Positions 35,736 through 44,994 of a stretch of DNA of 64,000 nt are shown here, one piece after another. The notes beneath the pieces were generated by a model. The model saw nothing but the letters and a program-made list of their open reading frames with translations, had not been told where the DNA came from and did not search any database. Made by a program: the position numbers and the translations under genes. Origin of the DNA: Pseudomonas sp. URMO17WK12:I2. Its GTDB lineage: Bacteria > Pseudomonadota > Gammaproteobacteria > Pseudomonadales > Pseudomonadaceae. The stretch is taken from contig NZ_QKYW01000001.1 in NCBI RefSeq assembly GCF_003253735.1, positions 496,001 to 560,000 of the forward strand. Reading direction: 5' to 3'. The stretch's first letter is position 1; each line of letters opens with the position of its first letter.

Positions 35736-37340
35736 TCAGCCACCCCGGATGGTCTGCCAGCTCAAGCCGAAGCGCGCCAGGTACTTGCGCAGGCGATCGG
35801 CATCGTTGGGCTGCGCCTTGGCCTGGCGGCTGATATCGAACAGCAGCCGGCCGGCCTCGGACAGGCTGCCCGCCTGCCGACAGATAGCGATCACCGCCTG
35901 CAGTTGCAGGCGGTCGAACAGGTCGATCTCGGCGGCCGCCTCACCGAGCAGATCCGACAGCCCATCATCGACCTGCGGCACACCCCAGGCGCGCCGCAGC
36001 CGTTCGATCTCCTCCAGCACCTGAGCCTCGTCGATACGACCGCTGTCGGCCAGGGTCGCCATACGGGTGATCGAGGCCGACAGCTCGCGAAAGTTGCCCT
36101 GCCAGGCCGCCTCGCTGGAGCTGGCGAAAGCCAGGTAGCGGCGCCGCGCCTCCAGGTTAAAGCGCACCATCCGTCCCTGCTCGCGGGCATGGCGCTCGAG
36201 CTCGAAATCGATGTTCGGCTCGATGTCCTCGCGGCGCCCGGCCAGCCCCGGCAGCTCGAAGGTCCACAGATTGATGCGCGCATACAGGTCTTCACGGAAC
36301 AGCCTTTCGGCGACCCGCGCACGCAGGTCGCGATGGGTGCCGGCGATCAGCAGGAAATCACTGCTCACCTCCTTGTCCGCGCCCATGGGGAAGAAGCGTT
36401 TTTCCTCGACGGCCTTGAGCAGCATGGCCTGCTCGTCCAGGCCCAACTCGCCGATTTCGTCGAGAAACAGCATGCCGCCATCGGCGGCGCGCAGCAGGCC
36501 ATCGCGGGCGTTCTGCGCACCGGTGAAGGCGCCCTTGATATGACCGAACAACGCCGACATGGCGCCGTCGCCACGCAAGGTCGCGCAGTTGACCTCGACG
36601 AAGCGGCCATCCACCAGGTGCCGGCTGCGCTTGAGCTCGTAGACACGCCGGGCCAGGAACGACTTGCCCGCGCCGGTCGGGCCGATCAGCAGCATCGGTG
36701 CCGAGGAGCGCACGGCGACCCGCTCGATCTGCTCGATGGAGCGATTGAACGCCGCGTTGCGCGTGGCGATACCGGACTTGAGAAACGCCAGCCCCTCCAG
36801 CCGCTCGTGCTGGAAGCGCGTGGCGATGCGGTCGTAGCGCGACAGGTCGAGGTCGATCAGCGCGTGAGTGCCGGTGACCTGGGTCTGCTCATCACGCTTG
36901 CGCGCCGGCGAGGTCTGCACCAGCCGCGCCGGCAGGTAGCGCGCCTCGGTGAGCAGGAACCAGCAGATCTGCGCCACGTGGGTCCCGGTGGTGATGTGCA
37001 CCAGGTAGTCCTCACGCTCGGTATCGAAGGCGTAACCGCTGGTGAAGTCATGCAGCGCGCCATACACCTCCTCGAAATCCCAGGGGTTGCGCAGGTGCAT
37101 CGGCTGCAGGCGCACCTCGGTCTCCGGGGAGATCTGCTCGATATCGGCGCGAATACGCTCGGCGAGGCTGATGTCACGCGCATCGGTGCCGTGAATCAGC
37201 TCCAGGCGATCGATCAGCAGGTCAGGCTGCTGGCACAGGCCGATACTCGGCCGCCACTTGTTCCAGCGATTGGCGCCCTTGCCGACCCGATCCAGTGTGG
37301 CGCCGATAAAGCCGATAGCGACGGTAGGTTTGCGGGCCAT
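35736..37340 (-). CDS. rtcR: RtcR, CARF-domain sigma54 activator of the RNA-repair operon
   Basis: 534 aa from ATG 37340, preceded by AGGAGGAATTGACC. Residues 1-180 form a CARF-like sensor domain (AIGFIGATLDRVGKGANRWN; HITTGTHVAQICWFLLTEA). A sigma54-type AAA+ domain follows with Walker A GPTGAGKS, the sigma54-contacting loop GAFTGA, Walker B LFLDEIGEL and arginine-finger region. A C-terminal helix-turn-helix is likely. In enterobacteria RtcR is activated by RNA with 2',3'-cyclic phosphate or damaged tRNA, after which it turns on the rtc operon. It is divergent from rsr, and palindromic candidate binding sites lie in the gap. Confidence 0.94.
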   Translation of the reverse strand: MARKPTVAIGFIGATLDRVGKGANRWNKWRPSIGLCQQPDLLIDRLELIHGTDARDISLAERIRADIEQISPETEVRLQPMHLRNPWDFEEVYGALHDFTSGYAFDTEREDYLVHITTGTHVAQICWFLLTEARYLPARLVQTSPARKRDEQTQVTGTHALIDLDLSRYDRIATRFQHERLEGLAFLKSGIATRNAAFNRSIEQIERVAVRSSAPMLLIGPTGAGKSFLARRVYELKRSRHLVDGRFVEVNCATLRGDGAMSALFGHIKGAFTGAQNARDGLLRAADGGMLFLDEIGELGLDEQAMLLKAVEEKRFFPMGADKEVSSDFLLIAGTHRDLRARVAERLFREDLYARINLWTFELPGLAGRREDIEPNIDFELERHAREQGRMVRFNLEARRRYLAFASSSEAAWQGNFRELSASITRMATLADSGRIDEAQVLEEIERLRRAWGVPQVDDGLSDLLGEAAAEIDLFDRLQLQAVIAICRQAGSLSEAGRLLFDISRQAKAQPNDADRLRKYLARFGLSWQTIRGG

Positions 37341-37368
37341 GGTCAATTCCTCCTGAGCCTGCCATCTA

Positions 37369-37405
37369 TTATCCATAAAGATAAATAACTATCTATAAAG
37401 ATAGT
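37369..37405. promoter_or_regulatory. Two palindromic upstream sites, candidate RtcR binding
   Basis: TTATC-N6-GATAA (37369-37384) and ACTATCT-ATAA-AGATAGT (37388-37405, perfect 7-bp arms) have centres 20 bp apart, two helical turns. They share the core TATC(T/C)ATAAAGATA and lie about 120-145 bp upstream of the sigma54-type promoter, a usual place for an enhancer-binding activator. They overlap the rtcR leader, so autoregulation is possible. Confidence 0.65.
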
Positions 37406-37513: not shown

Positions 37514-37529
37514 TGGCACAGCCGCTGCA
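37514..37529 (+). promoter_or_regulatory. Sigma54-type promoter of the rsr/Y-RNA/rtc operon
   Basis: TGGCACAGCCGCTGCA fits the -24/-12 consensus TGGCACGNNNNTTGCW with the GG and GC doublets 12 nt apart. It lies 40 nt upstream of rsr and is paired with a divergent sigma54 activator gene, which makes the call strong. Confidence 0.85.
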
Positions 37530-37568: not shown

Positions 37569-39119
37569 ATGGCCAACTTCAATCTGTTCAATACCCGGCA
37601 AGCCCAACTGCCGGCCAGCGACACACTGAACAACCAGCAAGCCCCGGCCTACAGCTACAAGTCCAAGCACAAGCTGGCCCAGTTGGCCGTTACCGGTTGC
37701 TTGAACCAGACCTACTACGCCGATGCTGAAACCCAGTTGGCCGAGGTATTGAAGCTGGTCGCCGAACTGGACGCCCGCTACGTGGCAAAGGCCGCTGTGT
37801 ACGCTCGCAAGAAAGGCCACATGAAGGACATGCCGGCTCTGCTACTGGCAGCCCTGGCCGCACAGCGCTCTAGCCTGGTGCCGGCGCTGTTCGCCGAGGT
37901 GGTGGATAACGGCAAGATGCTGCGCACCTTCGTACAGATCCTGCGCAGTGGCGTGACCGGTCGCAAGTCGCTCGGCTCGCAGCCGAAGCGCCTGGTACAG
38001 ACCTGGCTGAACAGCGCCAGCGAACGCCAGCTGCTGCAGGCCGCGGTCGGTAATCAGCCATCACTGGCGGACGTGGTGAAGATGGTTCACCCCAAGCCGG
38101 CAGAAGCGTGGCGCGAAGCGTTCTTCGCCTGGCTGATCGGCAAGCCGGCGGATGCCGCCGCCCTGCCACCGCTGACTCGCGCCCTGCTGGCGTTTCGCAG
38201 CGGAGCGAGCAGCGAGCTGCCAGACGTACCGTTCCAGTTGCTCGGCAACGAGATGTTGAGCGCGGCGCAATGGGCGGAGCTGGCAGGCCGCATGGGTTGG
38301 CAGGCGCTGCGTATGAACCTGAACACGCTGCTGCGCAACGGCGCATTCGAGATCGAGGGCTGCACGGAAATAGTCGCCGCACGGCTGGCAGACGCAGAGG
38401 CGATAGCCAAGGCGCGGGCGTACCCGTACCAGTTGCTGGCGGCCTATCGCATGGCCGGCAACGGTGTACCGGTGGTGGTACGTGAAGCGCTGCAGGATGC
38501 CCTGGAGCTGTCGCTGGCCAACGTGCCGGCACTGAGCGGCAACGTGGTGGTGTGCCCGGATGTATCCGGCTCGATGGCGAGCCCGGTAACCGGCTACCGC
38601 CAGGGTGCGACCACGGCGGTACGCTGCATCGATGTGGCGGCGCTGGTGGCAGCGGCGATATTGCGCAAGCAGCCGCATGCCCAGGTTCTGCCGTTCGAGA
38701 ACAAGGTGGTGAAGGTAACGCTCAACCCGCGTGACAGCGTGATGAGCAACGCGCAGAAGCTGGCAGCGATCGGCGGTGGCGGAACCAGTTGCTCGGCGCC
38801 GCTCAAGCAACTGGCGGATGCCAGGGCCAAGGTGGATACGCTGATCCTGGTTTCCGACAACGAATCCTGGATCGACGCCCGCCGCCATGGCGCAACGGAG
38901 ACGATGCGCCAGTGGGAGGGGATCAAGCAGTTCAACCCGCAAGCGCGGCTGATCTGCATCGACCTGCAACCCCATGGCACCACCCAGGCGCCGGATCGTG
39001 CAGACATCCTGAATGTCGGCGGCTTCAGTGACGCGGTGTTCGACGTGGTGGCGCAGTTCGCCAGCGGCACGTTCGGTACCGGCCACTGGGTCGACGCCAT
39101 CGAGAAGATGGAGATATGA
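37569..39119 (+). CDS. rsr: Rsr, bacterial Ro60 protein (TROVE plus vWA domains)
   Basis: 516 aa. Residues 1 to about 320 are a TROVE/HEAT-like ring (AKAAVYARKKGHMKDMPALL; FVQILRSGVTGRKSLGSQPK). Residues 324-516 are a von Willebrand A domain with an intact MIDAS (DVSGSM, Asp331) and GGTSCSAPL. Ro60 proteins bind Y RNAs on the outside of the ring and pass single-stranded ends of misfolded RNAs through the hole; in bacteria they act with exoribonucleases such as PNPase. It is the first gene after the sigma54-type promoter and is followed by five Y-RNA-like units, so the RNA partners appear to be co-transcribed. Confidence 0.93.
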   Translation: MANFNLFNTRQAQLPASDTLNNQQAPAYSYKSKHKLAQLAVTGCLNQTYYADAETQLAEVLKLVAELDARYVAKAAVYARKKGHMKDMPALLLAALAAQRSSLVPALFAEVVDNGKMLRTFVQILRSGVTGRKSLGSQPKRLVQTWLNSASERQLLQAAVGNQPSLADVVKMVHPKPAEAWREAFFAWLIGKPADAAALPPLTRALLAFRSGASSELPDVPFQLLGNEMLSAAQWAELAGRMGWQALRMNLNTLLRNGAFEIEGCTEIVAARLADAEAIAKARAYPYQLLAAYRMAGNGVPVVVREALQDALELSLANVPALSGNVVVCPDVSGSMASPVTGYRQGATTAVRCIDVAALVAAAILRKQPHAQVLPFENKVVKVTLNPRDSVMSNAQKLAAIGGGGTSCSAPLKQLADARAKVDTLILVSDNESWIDARRHGATETMRQWEGIKQFNPQARLICIDLQPHGTTQAPDRADILNVGGFSDAVFDVVAQFASGTFGTGHWVDAIEKMEI

Positions 39120-39124
39120 AAGTC

Positions 39125-39149
39125 ATGCTCCGCCCACTGGGCGGAGCAT
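39125..39149 (+). promoter_or_regulatory. Perfect 11-bp hairpin just after rsr
   Basis: ATGCTCCGCCC-ACT-GGGCGGAGCAT starts 6 nt after the rsr stop and is followed by ATAAAAAG, not a T-run. It may stabilise the 3' end of the rsr message or guide processing of the downstream RNAs. Confidence 0.65.
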
Positions 39150-39172
39150 ATAAAAAGAGCAATTTCGCGGCA

Positions 39173-39285
39173 CCATGAATGCCGTCGAGACTACAGGTAA
39201 GCGAGGCCGGGAACTCCGGTACGAGCGAGCAGGTTCAAGCCCTGCAACGCGCTAGCGCGAAAGGTCTCGGCGAACTTGGTCATGG
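39173..39285 (+). ncRNA. Y-RNA-like unit 1 (T-arm and capped stem, no D-arm seen)
   Basis: The ends CCATGA / TCATGG form the outer helix. The inner helix CCGTCGAGAC / GTCTCGGCG has one G-U pair. The internal loop between them carries GAATG on one side and GAACTTGG on the other, resembling the CGAA / ACUUG Ro-binding loop of animal Y RNAs. The module has a T-arm-like hairpin GCAGG-TTCAAGC-CCTGC (39229-39245) and a CGCG-CTAG-CGCG stem (39248-39259). A further hairpin CCGG-GAACT-CCGG is at 39207-39219. Confidence 0.75.
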
Positions 39286-39293
39286 CGAAGCGA

Positions 39294-39379
39294 GGCACGA
39301 ATGCCAGTGGCTGTACAGGTTATGCCGGTTTCGATACCGGCCCGTGGCAACACGGAACAGTCGCCCCTCTTGTCGTGCC
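39294..39379 (+). ncRNA. Y-RNA-like unit 2 (short module)
   Basis: Outer helix GGCACGA / TCGTGCC (7 bp, perfect); inner helix GTGGCTGT / ACAGTCGC with two G-U pairs; loop signals CGAATGCC and CTCTTGTCG. The module is a T-arm-like hairpin GCCGG-TTTCGATA-CCGGC (39325-39342) and the stem CCGTG-GCAA-CACGG (39342-39355), capped by a GNRA tetraloop. No D-arm is visible. It is the smallest of the five units. Confidence 0.75.
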
Positions 39380-39395
39380 ACCTGATTCACGGTTT

Positions 39396-39527
39396 TGCGA
39401 CGAATGCCGGTGGAACTACACCCTTCCACGGTCGAGATGCGGGTTCGAATCCCGTCGGCTCCATCACTGAGGGGCCGTAGTTCAATGGCAGAACACGAAA
39501 ATACGTTTCACCACCTTTGTCGTCGCA
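39396..39527 (+). ncRNA. Y-RNA-like unit 3 with a complete circularly permuted tRNA module
   Basis: Outer helix TGCGACGA / TCGTCGCA (8 bp, perfect); inner helix GGTGGAAC / GTTTCACC (8 bp, one G-U); loop signals CGAATGCC and ACCTTTGTCG. In the module a canonical T-arm GCGGG-TTCGAAT-CCCGT (39439-39455) leads to the acceptor strand CGGCTCC, an 8-nt loop ATCACTGA, the partner GGGGCCG (7 bp, one G-U), then TA and the D-arm GTTC-AATGGCA-GAAC (39480-39494). Order is 3' half then 5' half of a tRNA. TCTTTTTC follows the outer helix and may cause some termination. Confidence 0.85.
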
Positions 39528-39537
39528 TCTTTTTCAG

Positions 39538-39644
39538 GCAGCGAATGCGGCCGGGCATTCCATCGGAACTGTGGGTTCGAATCCCACCTTGCGAAAGCAA
39601 GGCGCTCACCTGGCAGAGCACATGTCCGCCGAACTTGTCGCTGC
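39538..39644 (+). ncRNA. Y-RNA-like unit 4 with permuted tRNA module, GAAA cap
   Basis: Outer helix GCAGCGA / TCGCTGC (7 bp, perfect). The inner helix GGC-(C)-GGGCAT / ATGTCC-GCC has one bulged C, as in the Ro-binding helix of animal Y RNAs. Loop signals are CGAATG and CGAACTTGTCG. Module: T-arm GTGGG-TTCGAAT-CCCAC (39571-39587), acceptor mimic CTTGC-GAAA-GCAAG (39588-39601), 2-nt linker, D-arm GCTC-ACCTGGCA-GAGC (39604-39619). Confidence 0.85.
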
Positions 39645-39646
39645 AC

Positions 39647-39668
39647 GGAGGCCTGCCTCCACTTTTTT
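39647..39668 (+). terminator. Terminator-like hairpin between Y-RNA units 4 and 5
   Basis: GGAGG-CCTG-CCTCC followed by ACTTTTTT has the form of a short Rho-independent terminator. It would release units 1-4 and let only read-through reach unit 5 and rtcB. The stem is only 5-6 bp, so termination is probably partial. Confidence 0.5.
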
Positions 39669-39676
39669 GATTGACC

Positions 39677-39791
39677 CGGCGAATGCCGGTGGAACTACAG
39701 AACGTGAAGGTTGCGGGTTCAACTCCCGCCCCGGCGACGGGTAGCTCAATTGGATAGAGCAACGCGCATGTTTCACCAACGATTGTCGCCG
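39677..39791 (+). ncRNA. Y-RNA-like unit 5 with permuted tRNA module, GCGA cap
   Basis: Outer helix CGGCGA / TCGCCG (6 bp); inner helix GGTGGAAC / GTTTCACC, identical to unit 3; loop signals CGAATGCC and AACGATTGTCG. Module: GTT/AAC extension, T-arm GCGGG-TTCAACT-CCCGC (39713-39729), acceptor mimic CCCG-GCGA-CGGG (39730-39741), TA, D-arm GCTC-AATTGGATA-GAGC (39744-39760) with the invariant GG. It ends 39 nt before rtcB. Confidence 0.85.
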
Positions 39792-39830: not shown

Positions 39831-41063
39831 ATGATGATGCAAACCAAGACCTACAACCTGCTGGAAGTCGCCAATGGCAAGCCGATCAAGCTGTGGACGC
39901 AAGGCGTTCCGGTCGAGGAAGACGCCAGGCAGCAACTGATGAATACCGCGAAGATGCCCTTCATCTTCAAGCACCTGGCCGTGATGCCGGACGTGCATCT
40001 GGGTAAGGGCTCGACCATCGGCAGCGTGATTCCCACGGTCGGCGCGATCATCCCGGCGGCGGTCGGGGTGGATATCGGTTGCGGCATGATCGCCGCGCGC
40101 ACCTCGCTGATGGCCTCCGACCTGCCGGACAACCTGGCCGGCCTGCGCGCCGCCATCGAGAAGGCCGTGCCCCATGGGCGCACTGCTGGTCGTGGGGCTC
40201 GCGATAAAGGCGCCTGGGAAAACGTGCCGGAGCTGGCCGACCACGCCTGGTCGGCACTGAGCCAGCGCTTCAAGGCCATCACCGACAAGTACCCACGGCT
40301 GGAGAAGACCAACAACCGCAAACACCTGGGAACCCTGGGAACCGGTAACCACTTCGTCGAGGTGTGTCTGGACGAGGCGAATCGTGTCTGGTTCATGTTG
40401 CACAGCGGGTCACGCGGCGTGGGTAACGCCATTGGCAACCTGTTCATCGAACTGGCCCAGGCCGATATGCGCCATCACATCGCCAACCTGCCAGACCGTG
40501 ACCTGGCCTATTTCGAGGAAGGCAGCCAGCACTTCGACGATTACGTGGAAGCGGTGGGCTGGGCCCAGGACTTCGCCAAGCAGAACCGCGCATTGATGAT
40601 GCACGCGGTGGTCGCGGCAGCCCGCGGGGTGATCGCCAAGCCGTTCGAGGTCGCGCTGGAGGCGGTGAACTGCCACCACAACTACGTGCAGAAGGAACGT
40701 CACTTCGGTGAAGAAGTGCTGGTAACGCGCAAAGGCGCAGTGTCGGCAAAGAAGGGCGAACTGGGCATCATCCCCGGCTCCATGGGTGCCAAGAGCTTCA
40801 TCGTGCGCGGACTGGGTAATGAGGAAGCGTTCTGCTCCTGCAGCCACGGCGCCGGCCGCACCATGAGCCGCACCAAGGCGAAGAAGCTGTTCACCGTGGC
40901 CGACCAGATCAAGGCCACGGCCCACGTCGAATGCCGCAAGGACGCCGACGTGATCGACGAAATCCCGATGGCCTACAAGGATATCGACCAGGTCATGGAC
41001 GCCCAGCGCGAGCTGGTGGAAGTGGTGCACACCCTGCGTCAGGTGGTGTGCGTGAAAGGATAG
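39831..41063 (+). CDS. rtcB: RtcB, RNA 3'-phosphate/2',3'-cyclic-phosphate ligase
   Basis: 410 aa; three ATG codons in a row (39831, 39834, 39837) follow GAG. Conserved blocks: DVHLGKGSTIGSVIPT, GVDIGCGMIAAR (metal-binding Cys), GTLGTGNHFVEV, CHHNYVQKE, and SCSHGAGRTMSR with the His that is guanylylated. RtcB joins 3'-phosphate or cyclic-phosphate ends to 5'-OH ends using GTP and Mn2+. The length is that of the shorter bacterial type. It follows the Y-RNA array by 39 nt, so its messages carry or are processed from the array. Confidence 0.95.
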   Translation: MMMQTKTYNLLEVANGKPIKLWTQGVPVEEDARQQLMNTAKMPFIFKHLAVMPDVHLGKGSTIGSVIPTVGAIIPAAVGVDIGCGMIAARTSLMASDLPDNLAGLRAAIEKAVPHGRTAGRGARDKGAWENVPELADHAWSALSQRFKAITDKYPRLEKTNNRKHLGTLGTGNHFVEVCLDEANRVWFMLHSGSRGVGNAIGNLFIELAQADMRHHIANLPDRDLAYFEEGSQHFDDYVEAVGWAQDFAKQNRALMMHAVVAAARGVIAKPFEVALEAVNCHHNYVQKERHFGEEVLVTRKGAVSAKKGELGIIPGSMGAKSFIVRGLGNEEAFCSCSHGAGRTMSRTKAKKLFTVADQIKATAHVECRKDADVIDEIPMAYKDIDQVMDAQRELVEVVHTLRQVVCVKG

Positions 41064-41068
41064 AGATT

Positions 41069-42421
41069 ATGAAACACCTGAAAGATTGGCTGCAGTGGCT
41101 GAAAAGCCGACCGACCTCCGGCGACTACTGGGAAGACCGTCGCCTTCACGAAGCAATGGAAGCCCTCGCTGGCTGTAAGGGCGAAAGCGACTGGCTCACG
41201 CTGAGCCGTCACGGCAACGGTTTCGTGCGCGAGGTGGCGGTGCGTGAGCTGAGCGAGTTGCCTTCACCAGAAGCCCTGGCTGCCCTGCTCGAACTAGTCA
41301 ACGATTGGGTGCCACAAGTACGTCAATTGGCCAATGCTGGTGTGCAGCGCTATCTCACGTCCGAGCATGCGCCAGCGTTGCTGCATGCCCTGCAACCGCT
41401 GATGGCGCTTGCCGAGCGCCAACGCGCCGACCACAGCCAGACACTGGCTGCAGCCCGTACCGTACTGCAGGGTGCCGAAGTACGCGATGCGGTGCTGACG
41501 GCATTCCTCGCACAACAAGGCAAAAGCGCTCGATTTCTGTTCGACCTGCTGCTGGAGGCAAGCGATGAGCCGACCGACCTGCTCGGCAAGGCACTGGCAC
41601 ACCGCGAGATGACGGTACGGCAGATGGCGGTTTCGGCCTGCCAGAGCCTGCCCGCCGAACAGGCAGTGCCGCTACTGCAGCTGGCACTGGCTACACCCGG
41701 TGCCAGCGTACGGGTCAAAGCCATGCATGCGCTGCTGAGCCAGCTCGACGATCCACGCGAGATGCTGCGCAGCGCCCTGCTGGATGCTTCGCCGGCGGTG
41801 CGTAGCCTGGCCCGCTGGGCGGCGCCGCGCTGGCAACTCGATGCCGGCGAAGTGCTCGCAAAGCGACTGGACACAGCACTGCCGAAATCCAGGCGCGAGT
41901 GGCTGGGCGTGCTTGGCCTAGCCAGCGAACTGGAGGTCAGCCTGGATGAGCGCTGGCGCGCTGCAGCGCTTCGTTCGCCCATGGCCAGCGTGCGCCTGGC
42001 GGCGCTGACGAGCCTCGGCGACGGGCACCTGGGCGAACAGTTGGCGATGCTGGATGATCCTGCCGACAAAGTCTTCGCCAAAGCTTGCGAACGCCTGGGT
42101 CGCCAGCCCTGGGATGCATTGCAAGCAGAGCTCGACGGCCGCCTGGATAGTGACTGGCAGAGCCTGCCTGACCACCGCCGCGCCGCCCTGATGGCGTTGC
42201 GACCACGCTGGCAACAACTGGCCTACCTGCTGCGTCGCCTGGATAGCGATATCCAGCAGCGCGACTACTGGCTGGTCTGGATCGCCAACTGGTGCCAGCA
42301 GCAATACCTGATGGTCGACCCGACCACAGCGCCAGCCGAACGGCGCAGGTTGCTTGCCCGGGTTAGCGAACTGCAGGACAGCGGCGCCCTGCCGTCAGGT
42401 TGCGTGACGCGCCTGACGTGA
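41069..42421 (+). CDS. HEAT-repeat protein of the rtc operon
   Basis: 450 aa from the ATG 5 nt after the rtcB stop, with GGATAG nearby as a weak ribosome site. The sequence is almost entirely amphipathic helical repeats (VREVAVRELSELPSPEALAA; VRQMAVSACQSLPAEQAVPL; VRVKAMHALLSQLDDPREML; VRLAALTSLGDGHLGEQLAM), giving an alpha-solenoid. There is no catalytic motif, signal or membrane segment. Its place directly behind rtcB and in front of two more small genes suggests a scaffold or RNA/protein-binding role in RNA repair; that is inference from position only. Confidence 0.82.
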   Translation: MKHLKDWLQWLKSRPTSGDYWEDRRLHEAMEALAGCKGESDWLTLSRHGNGFVREVAVRELSELPSPEALAALLELVNDWVPQVRQLANAGVQRYLTSEHAPALLHALQPLMALAERQRADHSQTLAAARTVLQGAEVRDAVLTAFLAQQGKSARFLFDLLLEASDEPTDLLGKALAHREMTVRQMAVSACQSLPAEQAVPLLQLALATPGASVRVKAMHALLSQLDDPREMLRSALLDASPAVRSLARWAAPRWQLDAGEVLAKRLDTALPKSRREWLGVLGLASELEVSLDERWRAAALRSPMASVRLAALTSLGDGHLGEQLAMLDDPADKVFAKACERLGRQPWDALQAELDGRLDSDWQSLPDHRRAALMALRPRWQQLAYLLRRLDSDIQQRDYWLVWIANWCQQQYLMVDPTTAPAERRRLLARVSELQDSGALPSGCVTRLT

Positions 42422-42468: not shown

Positions 42469-43047
42469 ATGCTGCAACCCATGCAAAGCCAGCGACTCGA
42501 TGAACTGCGCACCCGCCTGGAAGAGGCGGGCTGCGTGTTCGACTTCATGGTGACCGCGCTCGATCCAACCGCCACGCCTGGCGAGGCGGAGCATCGGCTG
42601 GTGTTGCGGCTGCTGTTCGAGGCCATCCAGGAGCGCGCGCGGACCTGGCAACAGAAGCTGATCGCCCAGGATGCCCGTTACGCGAAACATCGTTGGCCCG
42701 AGTTGACTGCCGACCTGGCTCAGGCCCGCCCACAGCCGCTCACGGCCGATGCCGCTCGGGAACTGGCCAGTGAGGACGGTTTGCTGTGCCGCAACTTCCG
42801 CGACCCGCCCTACGGCACCCCGTTGCAGGTGGTGGATTTTCGCGAATGGCTGCAAGTGCTGCGGCTGTATCCGGAAGAAGGCATGCAGGTGCTCGATTGG
42901 GTCGGCGATGCGCACGAAGATCCGCAACGCAGCGCCTGGAGCGATTATTTCGACGACGGCAAGGAATGGTGGGGCATCTGGTGCCTCACTCTATACAACC
43001 CGCATCGCCGAACATTGTCCGCGCTGGCCGCCAGCGCGACAGACTAG
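42469..43047 (+). CDS. Uncharacterised rtc-operon protein, 192 aa
   Basis: Good ribosome site (GAGGTGAGGCC-ATG). I do not recognise a domain. The N-terminal half is predicted helical (SQRLDELRTRLEEAG, RLVLRLLFEAIQERARTWQQ). The C-terminal half is rich in aromatic and acidic residues (DPPYGTPLQVVDFREWLQVL, WSDYFDDGKEWWGIWCLTLY). No signal peptide. It sits between the HEAT gene and a nucleotidyltransferase gene in the same direction, with gaps of 47 and 15 bp. It is likely co-expressed with the repair enzymes. Confidence 0.75.
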   Translation: MLQPMQSQRLDELRTRLEEAGCVFDFMVTALDPTATPGEAEHRLVLRLLFEAIQERARTWQQKLIAQDARYAKHRWPELTADLAQARPQPLTADAARELASEDGLLCRNFRDPPYGTPLQVVDFREWLQVLRLYPEEGMQVLDWVGDAHEDPQRSAWSDYFDDGKEWWGIWCLTLYNPHRRTLSALAASATD

Positions 43048-43062
43048 ACAAGGATCGAACAG

Positions 43063-43851
43063 ATGGACATGCAACACCACCACCCACTCAGCGATGCCAT
43101 GCGCGCGCGGGTGCTGGCTGAACTGGACCGGGTCGAGCGCGAGCGCAACGTCAAGGTGCTGTATGCCTGCGAGTCGGGCAGCCGCGCCTGGGGGTTCGCC
43201 TCGACGGACAGCGACTACGACGTGCGCTTCGTCTACGTGGAGAAACCGGACTGGTTCGTCCAGGTCGATGCGGGCCGCGACGTGATCGAACGCCCGCTGG
43301 ACGACGAGCTGGACGTCAGCGGCTGGGAACTGCGCAAGACCTTGGGCCTGCTGCGCAAATCCAATCCGACGCTGCTGGAGTGGCTCGACTCGCCCCTGGC
43401 GTACCGCCAGGAAGATCAAGCCACGGCGCGCCTGCGCGAGCTGGCCGAGCACTTCTACAGCCCGCCGGCGGCGCGTAACCACTACCTGTCGATGGCCAGG
43501 AAGAACTTTCGCGGCTACCTGCAGGACGAGACGGTGCGTTTGAAGAAGTACTTCTACGTGCTACGCCCGCTGCTCGCCGTACTGTGGATCGACCAGGACC
43601 GTGGCCGGCCGCCGATGACTTTCGCCGACCTGCTGCAGACGGTGGACGATTCAGCGCTGCTGGCCGAGGTGGACGAACTGCTGGTGCTCAAGCGCAGTGC
43701 CGACGAGTCCGCCTACGGCCCGCGCCGCCCTGCCCTGCACGCCTTTATCGAGGCGCAGCTGGAGCGGCCGGTGCCGAGCCTGCCACGTACCCCGGCGGAC
43801 AGCGGCCTGCTCGATGCCTACCTGCGCGAGATGGTTGGCCGCTATGCCTGA
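43063..43851 (+). CDS. Predicted nucleotidyltransferase (YcgL/COG3541-like)
   Basis: 262 aa. The N-terminal part contains a textbook polymerase-beta-type nucleotidyltransferase motif: SGSRAWGFASTDSDYDVRFV, with GS and the DxD pair of metal-binding aspartates, followed by a third-strand region (LDVSGWELRKTLGLLRKSNP). The C-terminal part (LRPLLAVLWIDQDRGRPPMT) is the family's helical region. Substrate is unknown. Its position in the rtc operon suggests adding nucleotides to RNA ends or modifying a protein during repair; families of this type are known neighbours of RtcB. Confidence 0.85.
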   Translation: MDMQHHHPLSDAMRARVLAELDRVERERNVKVLYACESGSRAWGFASTDSDYDVRFVYVEKPDWFVQVDAGRDVIERPLDDELDVSGWELRKTLGLLRKSNPTLLEWLDSPLAYRQEDQATARLRELAEHFYSPPAARNHYLSMARKNFRGYLQDETVRLKKYFYVLRPLLAVLWIDQDRGRPPMTFADLLQTVDDSALLAEVDELLVLKRSADESAYGPRRPALHAFIEAQLERPVPSLPRTPADSGLLDAYLREMVGRYA

Positions 43852-43968: not shown

Positions 43969-44994
43969 ATGAACAAGGATATGCTCGAACTCGATGGCGC
44001 CATCGGCGGTGGGCAGGTACTGCGCACGGCGCTGAGCCTGTCGATGATCACCGGCACGCCGTTTCGCATTGCGAACATTCGCGCCAAGCGCAGCCGGCCG
44101 GGCCTGCTGCGCCAGCACCTGACCGCGGTGCTGGCCGCCGCCGAAATCAGCCGGGCCGAAACCGAAGGTGCCGAGATGCACGCGACCAGCCTGGTGTTTC
44201 GCCCCGGCACGATCCGCGGAGGCGACTACCGCTTCGCCATCGGCTCGGCGGGCAGTTGCACCCTGGTGCTGCAGACCATCCTGCCAGCCCTGCTGCAGGC
44301 CGCCGAAGCGAGCCGCGTGCAGATCAGCGGTGGCACCCACAACCCGGCCGCGCCACCGTTCGACTTTCTCGAGCGGGCCTGGCTGCCGCTGTTGCGGCGC
44401 ATGGGCGGGCAGGTGGAGCTGCAGCTGCATCGCCATGGCTTCGTGCCCGCCGGTGGCGGCGCACTGGAGGCGTTCATCCAGCCGTCGCAGCTGATGCCCC
44501 TGCACCTGCCCGAGCGGGGCGCGCTGATCGACCACCGCGCGGACGTGTTGCTGGCTGGAATTCCCGGCCACGTGGGCGAGCGCGAGCTGGCGCGCGTCGG
44601 CAAACGCCTGCAGTGGCCGGACGACCATCTGCACTGCACCTGGCTGGATCAGGAGTATGGTCCGGGCAATATCCTGATGCTGACGGTGGCCTGCGAGCAG
44701 CTGACGGAACAGTTCTGTGCCTTTGGGCAGACCAGCGTGCGCGCCGAAGCGGTCGCGGACCAAACCATCGAACCGCTGCGTAAGTGGCTTGCCAGCGGCG
44801 CAGCGGTGGCCGAGCACCTGGCCGACCAGTTGCTGCTGCCGATGGCACTGGCGGGCCGCGGCAGCTTCACCACCACGCACCTGAGCGAGCACCTGCAGAG
44901 CAATATTCAGGTGATCGAAGCCTTCTGCCCGGTGGCCGTGCGTTGCACGCCGACCGGCAAGGCGTTGCGGGTCGAGGTCGGTGTCCGCGACTAG
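43969..44994 (+). CDS. rtcA: RtcA, RNA 3'-terminal phosphate cyclase
   Basis: 341 aa; AAGGA lies 10 nt before the ATG. Signature blocks are LDGAIGGGQVLRTALSLS, RSRPGLLRQHLTA, SAGSCTLVLQTILPALL and the C-terminal THLSEHLQSNIQVIEAF, whose His308 matches the adenylylated catalytic histidine of E. coli RtcA. It converts RNA 3'-phosphate to 2',3'-cyclic phosphate via RNA-AMP, creating RtcB substrates. It is the last gene of the operon. Confidence 0.95.
   Translation: MNKDMLELDGAIGGGQVLRTALSLSMITGTPFRIANIRAKRSRPGLLRQHLTAVLAAAEISRAETEGAEMHATSLVFRPGTIRGGDYRFAIGSAGSCTLVLQTILPALLQAAEASRVQISGGTHNPAAPPFDFLERAWLPLLRRMGGQVELQLHRHGFVPAGGGALEAFIQPSQLMPLHLPERGALIDHRADVLLAGIPGHVGERELARVGKRLQWPDDHLHCTWLDQEYGPGNILMLTVACEQLTEQFCAFGQTSVRAEAVADQTIEPLRKWLASGAAVAEHLADQLLLPMALAGRGSFTTTHLSEHLQSNIQVIEAFCPVAVRCTPTGKALRVEVGVRD

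Follow-up and report, generated by a model that had tools for sequence, protein, structure and literature searches.

Why a single gene for a Ro60-type RNA-binding protein should be accompanied by a tandem series of candidate partner RNAs, each with a stem and a head of its own, is the question raised by a locus of Pseudomonas sp. URMO17WK12:I2. The locus lies in a stretch of 64,000 nucleotides (nt) that is hereafter called the window (contig NZ_QKYW01000001.1, positions 496,001 to 560,000, in a genome of 29 contigs). Here the gap of 711 nt between rsr, the putative gene of the Ro60-type protein, and rtcB, encoding an RNA ligase, holds five Y RNA-like units at 39173-39791. We consider it probable that they are five bacterial Y RNA genes, arranged as a cassette array in a repair operon of the RtcR/sigma-54 type, the products of which would be bound by Rsr and would carry heads serving as interchangeable mimics, adaptors or decoys.

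Signals, pairing and covariation in the five units

The array was sought with a Y-stem detector that combines the signals GAATG and TTG(G)TC and joins them by an outer helix of at least 5 base pairs (bp). Exactly five units were returned in the rsr-rtcB gap, the first beginning 53 nt past the end of rsr, and none in 20 dinucleotide shuffles of it; an initial annotation of this DNA had already placed a five-unit array between the two genes, and its positions are confirmed:

39173-39285, plus strand: unit 1, outer helix CCATGA/TCATGG and 10-bp inner helix; Y stem, fold z -2.1
39294-39379, plus strand: unit 2, outer helix GGCACGA/TCGTGCC; Y stem, fold z -3.5, 6 compensatory pairs
39396-39527, plus strand: unit 3, predicted permuted transfer RNA (tRNA) head; YrlA 56.3 bits, covariation
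39538-39644, plus strand: unit 4, predicted permuted tRNA head; YrlA 46.7 bits, covariation
39677-39791, plus strand: unit 5, predicted permuted tRNA head; YrlA 92.4 bits, covariation

The outer helices measure 6, 7, 8, 7 and 6 bp in units 1 to 5, just as had been listed, and the consensus proposed for the flanking signals turns out to be somewhat too narrow. A 5' signal of the GAATG type is found in all units, but unit 1 reads TGAATG and not CGAATG; the 3' signal, given as (A/C)(A/C)CTTGTCG, recurs as a type but is looser in unit 1 (ACTTGGTC), unit 3 (CTTTGTCG) and unit 5 (GATTGTCG). The inner helix ascribed to every unit spans about 8-10 bp and is visible in the comparative structures of units 3 and 5, but it does not emerge cleanly from all single-sequence folds, some of which disagree with it. 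With both signals, an outer and an inner helix, and a position beside rsr, all five units answer to the description of bacterial Y RNAs in the wider sense.

The same architecture recurs across rsr loci, here the 80 best among 88 relatives that a search with the Rsr of the window brought up, plus the window itself, a sample that leans towards gamma- and betaproteobacteria. The detector returned 235 units in the 81 rsr gaps, against 1.0 expected from shuffles, and a Y stem was present at 81 of 81 loci. When units were selected by their motifs, with no pairing required, 208 distinct units were obtained across the rsr loci, and an outer helix of at least 5 bp was present in 188 of them (mean 48 and maximum 56 when the 3' parts were re-dealt) while 192 had an inner helix of 6 bp or more (mean 90, maximum 101).

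Comparison of orthologues provides support for the pairing of units 2-5. Each alignment joined the window sequence to listed relatives: unit 5 to 17 of 18, unit 4 to 17 of 17 (a list with few of the closest relatives, the strict detector having missed their 3' signal), unit 3 to 16 of 17 and unit 2 to 16 of 35. Among the 18 sequences of unit 5, 98.0% of cells were paired and both sides had changed in 29 cells, against 9.4 after shuffling; among the 18 of unit 4 the corresponding values were 97.5% and 12 cells against 3.1, and in neither case did any of 500 shuffles score as high. The acceptor stem, the register of which varies between rows, was excluded from both tests. The helix that replaces the anticodon stem in unit 5 showed both-side changes in all 5 of its pairs, with 90% of cells paired. 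An unguided consensus of 17 sequences recovered for unit 3 outer (8 pairs), inner (8), T (5), acceptor (7) and D (4) helices, with 5 compensatory pairs, and 17 sequences of unit 2 yielded 6 compensatory pairs, its T-like hairpin not being recovered as such in the consensus.

Scores with the Rfam YrlA model (RF02553, gathering cut-off 69 bits) were 24.5, 23.9, 56.3, 46.7 and 92.4 bits for units 1 to 5, corresponding in a search of 801 bases to E-values of 2e-22 for unit 5, 6e-12 for unit 3 and 4e-9 for unit 4. Real tRNA clusters of the same genome (among them G000:C3:468174-468273, G000:C19:220-349 and G000:C1:647253-647431) also score with this model, at 27.7, 26.1, 20.3 and 19.9 bits, because neighbouring tRNAs read across their boundary yield the permuted order. 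The scores of units 3 and 4 are well above this range and those of units 1 and 2 are not. The Y RNA reading of the initial annotation is upheld by the YrlA matches of units 5, 3 and 4, by the covariation of units 2-5, by the adjoining Ro60-type gene and by the presence of RtcR, RtcB and RtcA.

Several observations nonetheless weigh against this reading. Only unit 5 passes the YrlA cut-off, units 1-4 falling under it, and the YrlA search gave matches in 13 of 14 control genomes as well, none of them over the cut-off. For units 1 and 2 the YrlA scores count for nothing, because tRNA clusters match them, and it is therefore the Y stem on which these two units rest; unit 1, moreover, was not listed in the genome-wide YrlA search, and it has no orthologue, hence no covariation of its own, and could be either recent or decaying. 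The single-sequence fold of unit 5 is only weakly better than those of shuffles (z -1.5), and the lone fold of unit 3 favours a pairing other than the comparative one. Two of five covariation measures for unit 5 and one of five for unit 4, concerning numbers of varied pairs or of pair types, did not go beyond shuffles. Finally, redundant copies sharing one function would look much alike.

Heads resembling permuted tRNA and 23S rRNA

The heads borne by these stems fall into two kinds within the window. In units 3-5 the order is T arm (5 bp, 7-nt loop), loop-closed acceptor stem and D arm, the permuted order characteristic of YrlA. Unit 3 has its T arm at 39439-39455 and its D arm at 39480-39494; between the two, an 8-nt loop joins the acceptor strands 39456-39462 and 39471-39477. 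The spacing is that of a full tRNA: a 7-bp acceptor abutting the T stem, two bases and a 4-bp D stem. Unit 4 places its T arm at 39571-39587, an acceptor hairpin with a GAAA loop at 39588-39601 and its D arm at 39604-39619, and in unit 5 the T arm (39713-39729) is followed by an acceptor hairpin (39730-39741) and a D arm (39744-39760). By comparison, these three heads are circularly permuted tRNAs in which the Y stem takes the position of the anticodon arm, and such a permutation has been reported for the Salmonella Y RNA structure 6CU1 (PMC11472068). Units 1 and 2, which have no D arm, do not share this order and would represent reduced heads in which a T-arm-like hairpin is kept: the middle one of three internal hairpins in unit 1 (39229-39245) and, in unit 2, the hairpin at 39324-39341, followed by a capped hairpin at 39342-39355.

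The tRNA-like features do not amount to tRNA genes. ARAGORN found 0 tRNA genes in the array, and the best match to the tRNA model (RF00005), at 39477-39588, straddles units 3 and 4 and reaches 25.2 bits against a cut-off of 29. In a relative (L009, 5846-5963) a normal-order match across two neighbouring permuted units scores 32.6 bits, over that cut-off. Permuted units read across their boundaries are a source of false tRNA annotation, of which annotators should be warned.

We also considered the heads as copies of single host tRNAs, and discarded the idea: the best matches in the window are mosaics or ties, the unit 3 head matching Gly(TCC) best with an acceptor stem that by eye is Ala-like, and unit 5 matching Arg, Trp and Thr about equally. 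Comparison of D arms across units gave a weak isotype signal, in an extraction that took the wrong segment in several units (e.g. L079.6, L016.2, L085.3). The clearest such signal is that of a relative, locus L079, where units 1 and 3 have Leu-like D arms and units 2 and 7 are of the common Thr-like type.

Relatives add further head types. Among 220 distinct units, 101 were of the type seen in window units 3-5 (type A), 7 of a second permuted type (type D), 28 showed a T arm only and 84 no recognised T arm, the assignment being made by crude regular expressions that counted L065.3 and L066.3 as T-only despite a visible D arm. Two or more type A or D units were present in 31 of 81 arrays; 12 of 81 had none, some of these owing to the crude rule. 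In type D heads the Y stem opens the D loop and a tetraloop-capped hairpin stands in the place of the anticodon arm, so that the order runs from the 3' strand of the D stem through the capped hairpin, the T arm and the closed acceptor to the 5' strand of the D stem. Folded alone, three of the seven (L079.8, L065.4 and L082.3) gave the cloverleaf directly and L067.2 came close to it; it was not seen in L048.4, L052.3 or L088.3.

A head of another kind occurs in three relatives (L087, L050 and L055), each of which has inside its rsr array one unit with a head that begins AACGGTCCTAAG and ends GGCCGT. A pattern made for this 23S-like head, resembling 23S ribosomal RNA (rRNA), found it in 4 of 5 genomes tried and, over 294 genomes of the family, gave 5 matches, of which 4 were true, two of them new, and one (L143) was not a Y RNA; a reversed-pattern control matched in 3 of the 294. 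The resulting six genomes are related Burkholderiales, akin to Undibacterium, and their units lie as follows:

L141:1408-1536, minus strand: 23S-like unit
L139:1406-1534, minus strand: 23S-like unit
L144:1406-1534, minus strand: 23S-like unit
L140:1497-1623: 23S-like unit
L142:340-466: 23S-like unit
L145:1497-1623: 23S-like unit

When Escherichia coli 23S rRNA was cut at every fifth position, permuted accordingly and aligned to the six units, scores reached 38-47.5 with the cut near 1890-1915 and did not exceed 31-38.5 once the cut lay over 130 nt from there; L140 did best with a cut at 1995 (39.0), its scores at 1890-1905 being 38.0-38.5. The displayed alignments cover only the stretch downstream of the cut, and the swapped strand GGCCGT was read from the sequences and pairs in the consensus. 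In that consensus the head is closed by ACGGTC/GGCCGT, which are, in swapped order, both strands of what we take to be helix 69 of 23S rRNA, and hairpins stand at the positions that helix 71 and the hairpin after it occupy in 23S rRNA. Both-side changes occur in 2 of the 33 pairs of the consensus and in none of the helix 69 stem, an invariant stem that neither supports nor denies the rRNA reading. Plain local alignment to rRNA gave 34 for L050.4 and 32 for L064.1, against a mean of 19.5 and a maximum of 25 for shuffled units; the score of L064.1 is taken to be chance, so that this alignment alone is not conclusive. Rfam models, that of 23S rRNA included, did not report the 23S-like units of L050, L055 and L087 at E up to 0.1. 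Given its likeness in sequence, order and fold, this head reads as a putative permuted mimic of helices 69-71, opened in the loop of helix 69.

Number, turnover and genomic setting of the arrays

Arrays of this kind are not rare. The strict detector counted one unit at 11 of the 81 loci, two at 27, three at 21, four at 12, five at 6, six at 1, seven at 1 and eight at 2, values that are mostly lower bounds, as close relatives with 2-4 strict matches show five slots when aligned and inspected by eye. At three loci without an rtcB match (L046, L048 and L049), up to 1500 nt past rsr were taken. The loci L078, L022 and L021, of P. protegens or P. chlororaphis, hold 4, 4 and 3 units by the strict count. 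The view that five tandem units are unusual is therefore only partly right: at least five were counted at 10 of 81 loci, and at least two at 70. The longest series include that of Andreprevotia lacus (L079:6060-7909), with eight units in a gap of 2971 nt; the Rfam YrlA model, applied to six loci as an independent check, found there the same eight units as the detector, one of them over the cut-off.

Among close relatives the array shows both constancy and change. Ten of them, when aligned, share the five slots in the same order, as judged by eye. In slot 4 the window unit matches the relatives at 91-96% identity over its first 11 and last 12 nt and at 54-62% over the inside, a region in which the relatives agree among themselves at 83% on average; the heads most similar to that of unit 4 reach 76-80% identity and come from 3 of 397 genomes, each of which carries rsr. 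Slot 1 differs throughout (30-48% identity), being a short Y RNA in the relatives and a 113-nt unit in the window. No counterpart of unit 1 was found in the other 397 Pseudomonas genomes searched, 38 of which carry rsr if the same genomes were drawn, and its four other matches are 24-46 nt long and fall in DNA that by eye has no Y stem. Slot 4 is a case of a changed head on a kept stem, and slot 1 one in which the whole unit differs. The comparison suggests, on our own reading of it, an exchange of heads, for which fast divergence is the alternative; it also suggests that units are gained, lost and re-headed between species.

We asked as well whether the outer helices act as unit-specific barcodes against mispairing, and set this aside as partly true. 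Pairing of a unit with itself averages 6.7 bp against 3.7 between units, but at least 5 bp can form in 129 of 628 cross-unit pairs, and window unit 5 pairs equally well with two other units.

The genes around the array correspond to a repair operon, with rtcR and rsr arranged as a divergent pair:

35736-37376, minus strand: rtcR, sigma-54 activator of the operon; Pfam RtcR 285 bits plus Sigma54_activat
37514-37529, plus strand: sigma-54 type -24/-12 site TGGCAC-N5-CTGCA, 5' of rsr; sole match in the window, 0.19 expected by chance
37569-39119, plus strand: rsr, predicted Ro60-type Y RNA-binding protein; Pfam vWA_Ro60 plus TROVE
39647-39668, plus strand: terminator-like hairpin GGAGGCCTGCCTCC, then AC and T6, between units 4 and 5; terminator scan
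39831-41063, plus strand: rtcB, RNA ligase; Pfam RtcB 438 bits
about 41069-42421: HEAT-repeat gene, between rtcB and rtcA
42469-43047: gene for a 192-residue protein with no Pfam match, between rtcB and rtcA
43063-43851: RlaP nucleotidyltransferase gene, between rtcB and rtcA
43969-44994, plus strand: rtcA, RNA 3'-phosphate cyclase; Pfam RTC 259 bits

The Pfam domains of rsr agree with the expectation that the gene directly upstream of the array encodes a Ro60-type protein, the closest named relatives of which are from Pseudomonas (90-92% identity). In 56 of 67 checkable relatives a relaxed form of the sigma-54 site lies no more than 160 nt upstream of rsr, a count made without shuffle control. 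Four nt past the rsr stop lies a strong 12-bp hairpin (39124-39150) with no T run on the plus strand, possibly an mRNA end or a processing signal; by eye, aligned relatives have a different GC-rich inverted repeat at this position. We also considered, and rejected, the idea that a terminator or a second promoter is conserved in the interval separating unit 4 from unit 5: terminator-like sites in the region numbered 4 against 2.4 expected in shuffles, and a stricter scan, which does not call the terminator in the window itself, calls one in 3 of 12 relatives (L014, L044 and L009, the last with a different hairpin).

Within the genus rsr was found in 39 of 398 genomes searched, in one of them split by stop codons; this relative (G403:C1:2335605-2337153), in two pieces, is probably a broken copy. 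The array DNA had no match in phages, plasmids not having been part of that search. Relatives of Rsr were counted in 350 phage records and 67 plasmid records, and none appeared in a scan of viral contigs. Myxococcus phage Mx1 (L157:4001-6705) carries a full-length Rsr relative (44%) followed by tRNA-Gly and peptidyl-tRNA hydrolase, and no YrlA match was reported by Rfam at this locus at E up to 0.1.

Mimics, decoys or copies

How such an array might work can be sketched from the published Salmonella and Deinococcus system, by which cut tRNAs would lead RtcR to turn the operon on, the transcript would be processed into separate Y RNAs and Rsr would grip each of them by its stem. On our own view, the heads would then imitate the RNAs handled by the operon, tRNAs here and a segment of 23S rRNA in some relatives, and would bind proteins that recognise those RNAs, acting as adaptors for PNPase-type decay and/or as decoys without the usual cutting loop; with several heads, one Rsr could serve several partners. 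A bolder version, which we advance tentatively and regard as rather unlikely to hold as a whole, is that the arrays are evolving libraries of permuted RNA mimics, with heads swapped into fixed slots and a single Rsr presenting many targets that cannot be cut. Each head would, on the same tentative footing, copy the fold of an RNA at risk (tRNAs, or helices 69-71 of 23S rRNA), opened at the loop that is replaced by the Ro60-binding stem.

The main rival, in our judgment rather doubtful, holds that the units are redundant YrlA copies, all of the tRNA-like heads tethering Rsr to PNPase in the assembly known as RYPER and copy number setting the dose. The reported binding of PNPase by the head gives it substance (PMC8394870). 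According to the same paper, Rsr is bound by the Y stem, and YrlA is a substrate of DusA and TruB, which modify the head. By strict count 27 of 81 arrays have exactly two units and 11 have one, which implies that one or two suffice in many species. Against redundancy, the slots retain distinct stems and heads across Pseudomonas, with no homogenising, head types differ (two permutations, T-arm-only and 23S-like), and D arms within one array resemble those of different tRNAs, as with the Leu-like and Thr-like arms of L079. That there are several heads, that they change and that some in relatives are rRNA-like speaks for a library of mimics rather than for simple dose, without constituting proof of it.

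A narrower form of the explanation that we prefer, with which its likelihood overlaps, would make the heads decoys only, competing with tRNAs or 23S rRNA for whichever ribonucleases set the operon off; the cutting loop would be replaced by the Y stem, the decoy bound and left uncut, and the arrays would diversify with the nucleases met. We see this as a possible account, if on the unlikely side. Type A heads have no anticodon loop and 23S-like heads are opened at the position of the helix 69 loop, and the slot 4 head in the window has changed more than its stem ends. Type D heads, on the other hand, are opened in the D loop, which is not known as the usual site of cutting, and we know of no nuclease in this organism that recognises the tRNA elbow. 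Pertinent to decoys is also the finding that YrlA is not cut by the RecA-dependent anticodon nuclease of Salmonella, for which the authors name competitive inhibition as one possibility (PMC7790460).

Two further explanations dispense with trans-acting RNAs or with function altogether. The array could be a structured leader that controls rtcB by attenuation or processing, in keeping with its place directly upstream of that gene and with the terminator-like hairpin between units 4 and 5; this hairpin is kept in only part of the relatives, what is conserved are separate closed units with heads of their own, and their strict number ranges from 1 to 8, all of which makes a leader very unlikely. 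That the array is a decayed tRNA cluster or a set of chance repeats is hardly credible. It has many tRNA-like motifs, ARAGORN sees no tRNA in it and tRNA clusters reach 27.7 bits with the YrlA model, but compensatory changes in four units and a Y stem common to 81 of 81 rsr loci refute this account for units 2-5, if not for unit 1.

Seen beside known systems, the array of interchangeable heads that we favour shares with Salmonella-type YrlA (RF02553) the Y stem, the permuted T-acceptor-D head (units 3-5) and the position beside rsr in an rtcR/rtcBA operon, and departs from it in that five units stand where Salmonella has YrlA and YrlB, with unit 5 alone passing the family cut-off. Each slot has its own stem and head, and for one slot or more the head on a given stem is not the one that close relatives have there. 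Unit 2, which has no D arm, presumably holds a place comparable to that of YrlB, the second Y RNA of the Salmonella operon, from which it differs in scoring 15.5 bits with the YrlB model (RF02565), where the cut-off is 97. Tandem RNAs, thought to offset tRNA-cutting defences, also make up the tRNA sets of phages and the accessory tRNA operons of bacteria, but those are real tRNAs in normal order, whereas the present units would be permuted mimics on Ro60-type stems. The expected mechanism is, by analogy, that of the Deinococcus radiodurans Rsr/Y RNA/PNPase complex, RYPER (a Ro60-type ring, a Y RNA and PNPase; PMC8394870); here several heads would be available per Rsr.

That Y RNAs with permuted tRNA heads lie beside rsr is already known. 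Chen reportedly described in 2014 at least one Y RNA per species with a tRNA-like domain, implying that several per species had been seen. Searches of open-access literature, outside which central Y RNA papers lie, brought up no description of multi-unit arrays that exchange heads, of a permutation in the D loop or of heads like 23S rRNA, and we do not claim their absence from print. The purpose of the bacterial Y RNA head is still an open question, and an array with several natural heads on one type of stem bears directly on it. With a head that differs between close species although its stem is conserved, and with a 23S-like head in other relatives, the role of the head becomes directly testable on a fixed stem.

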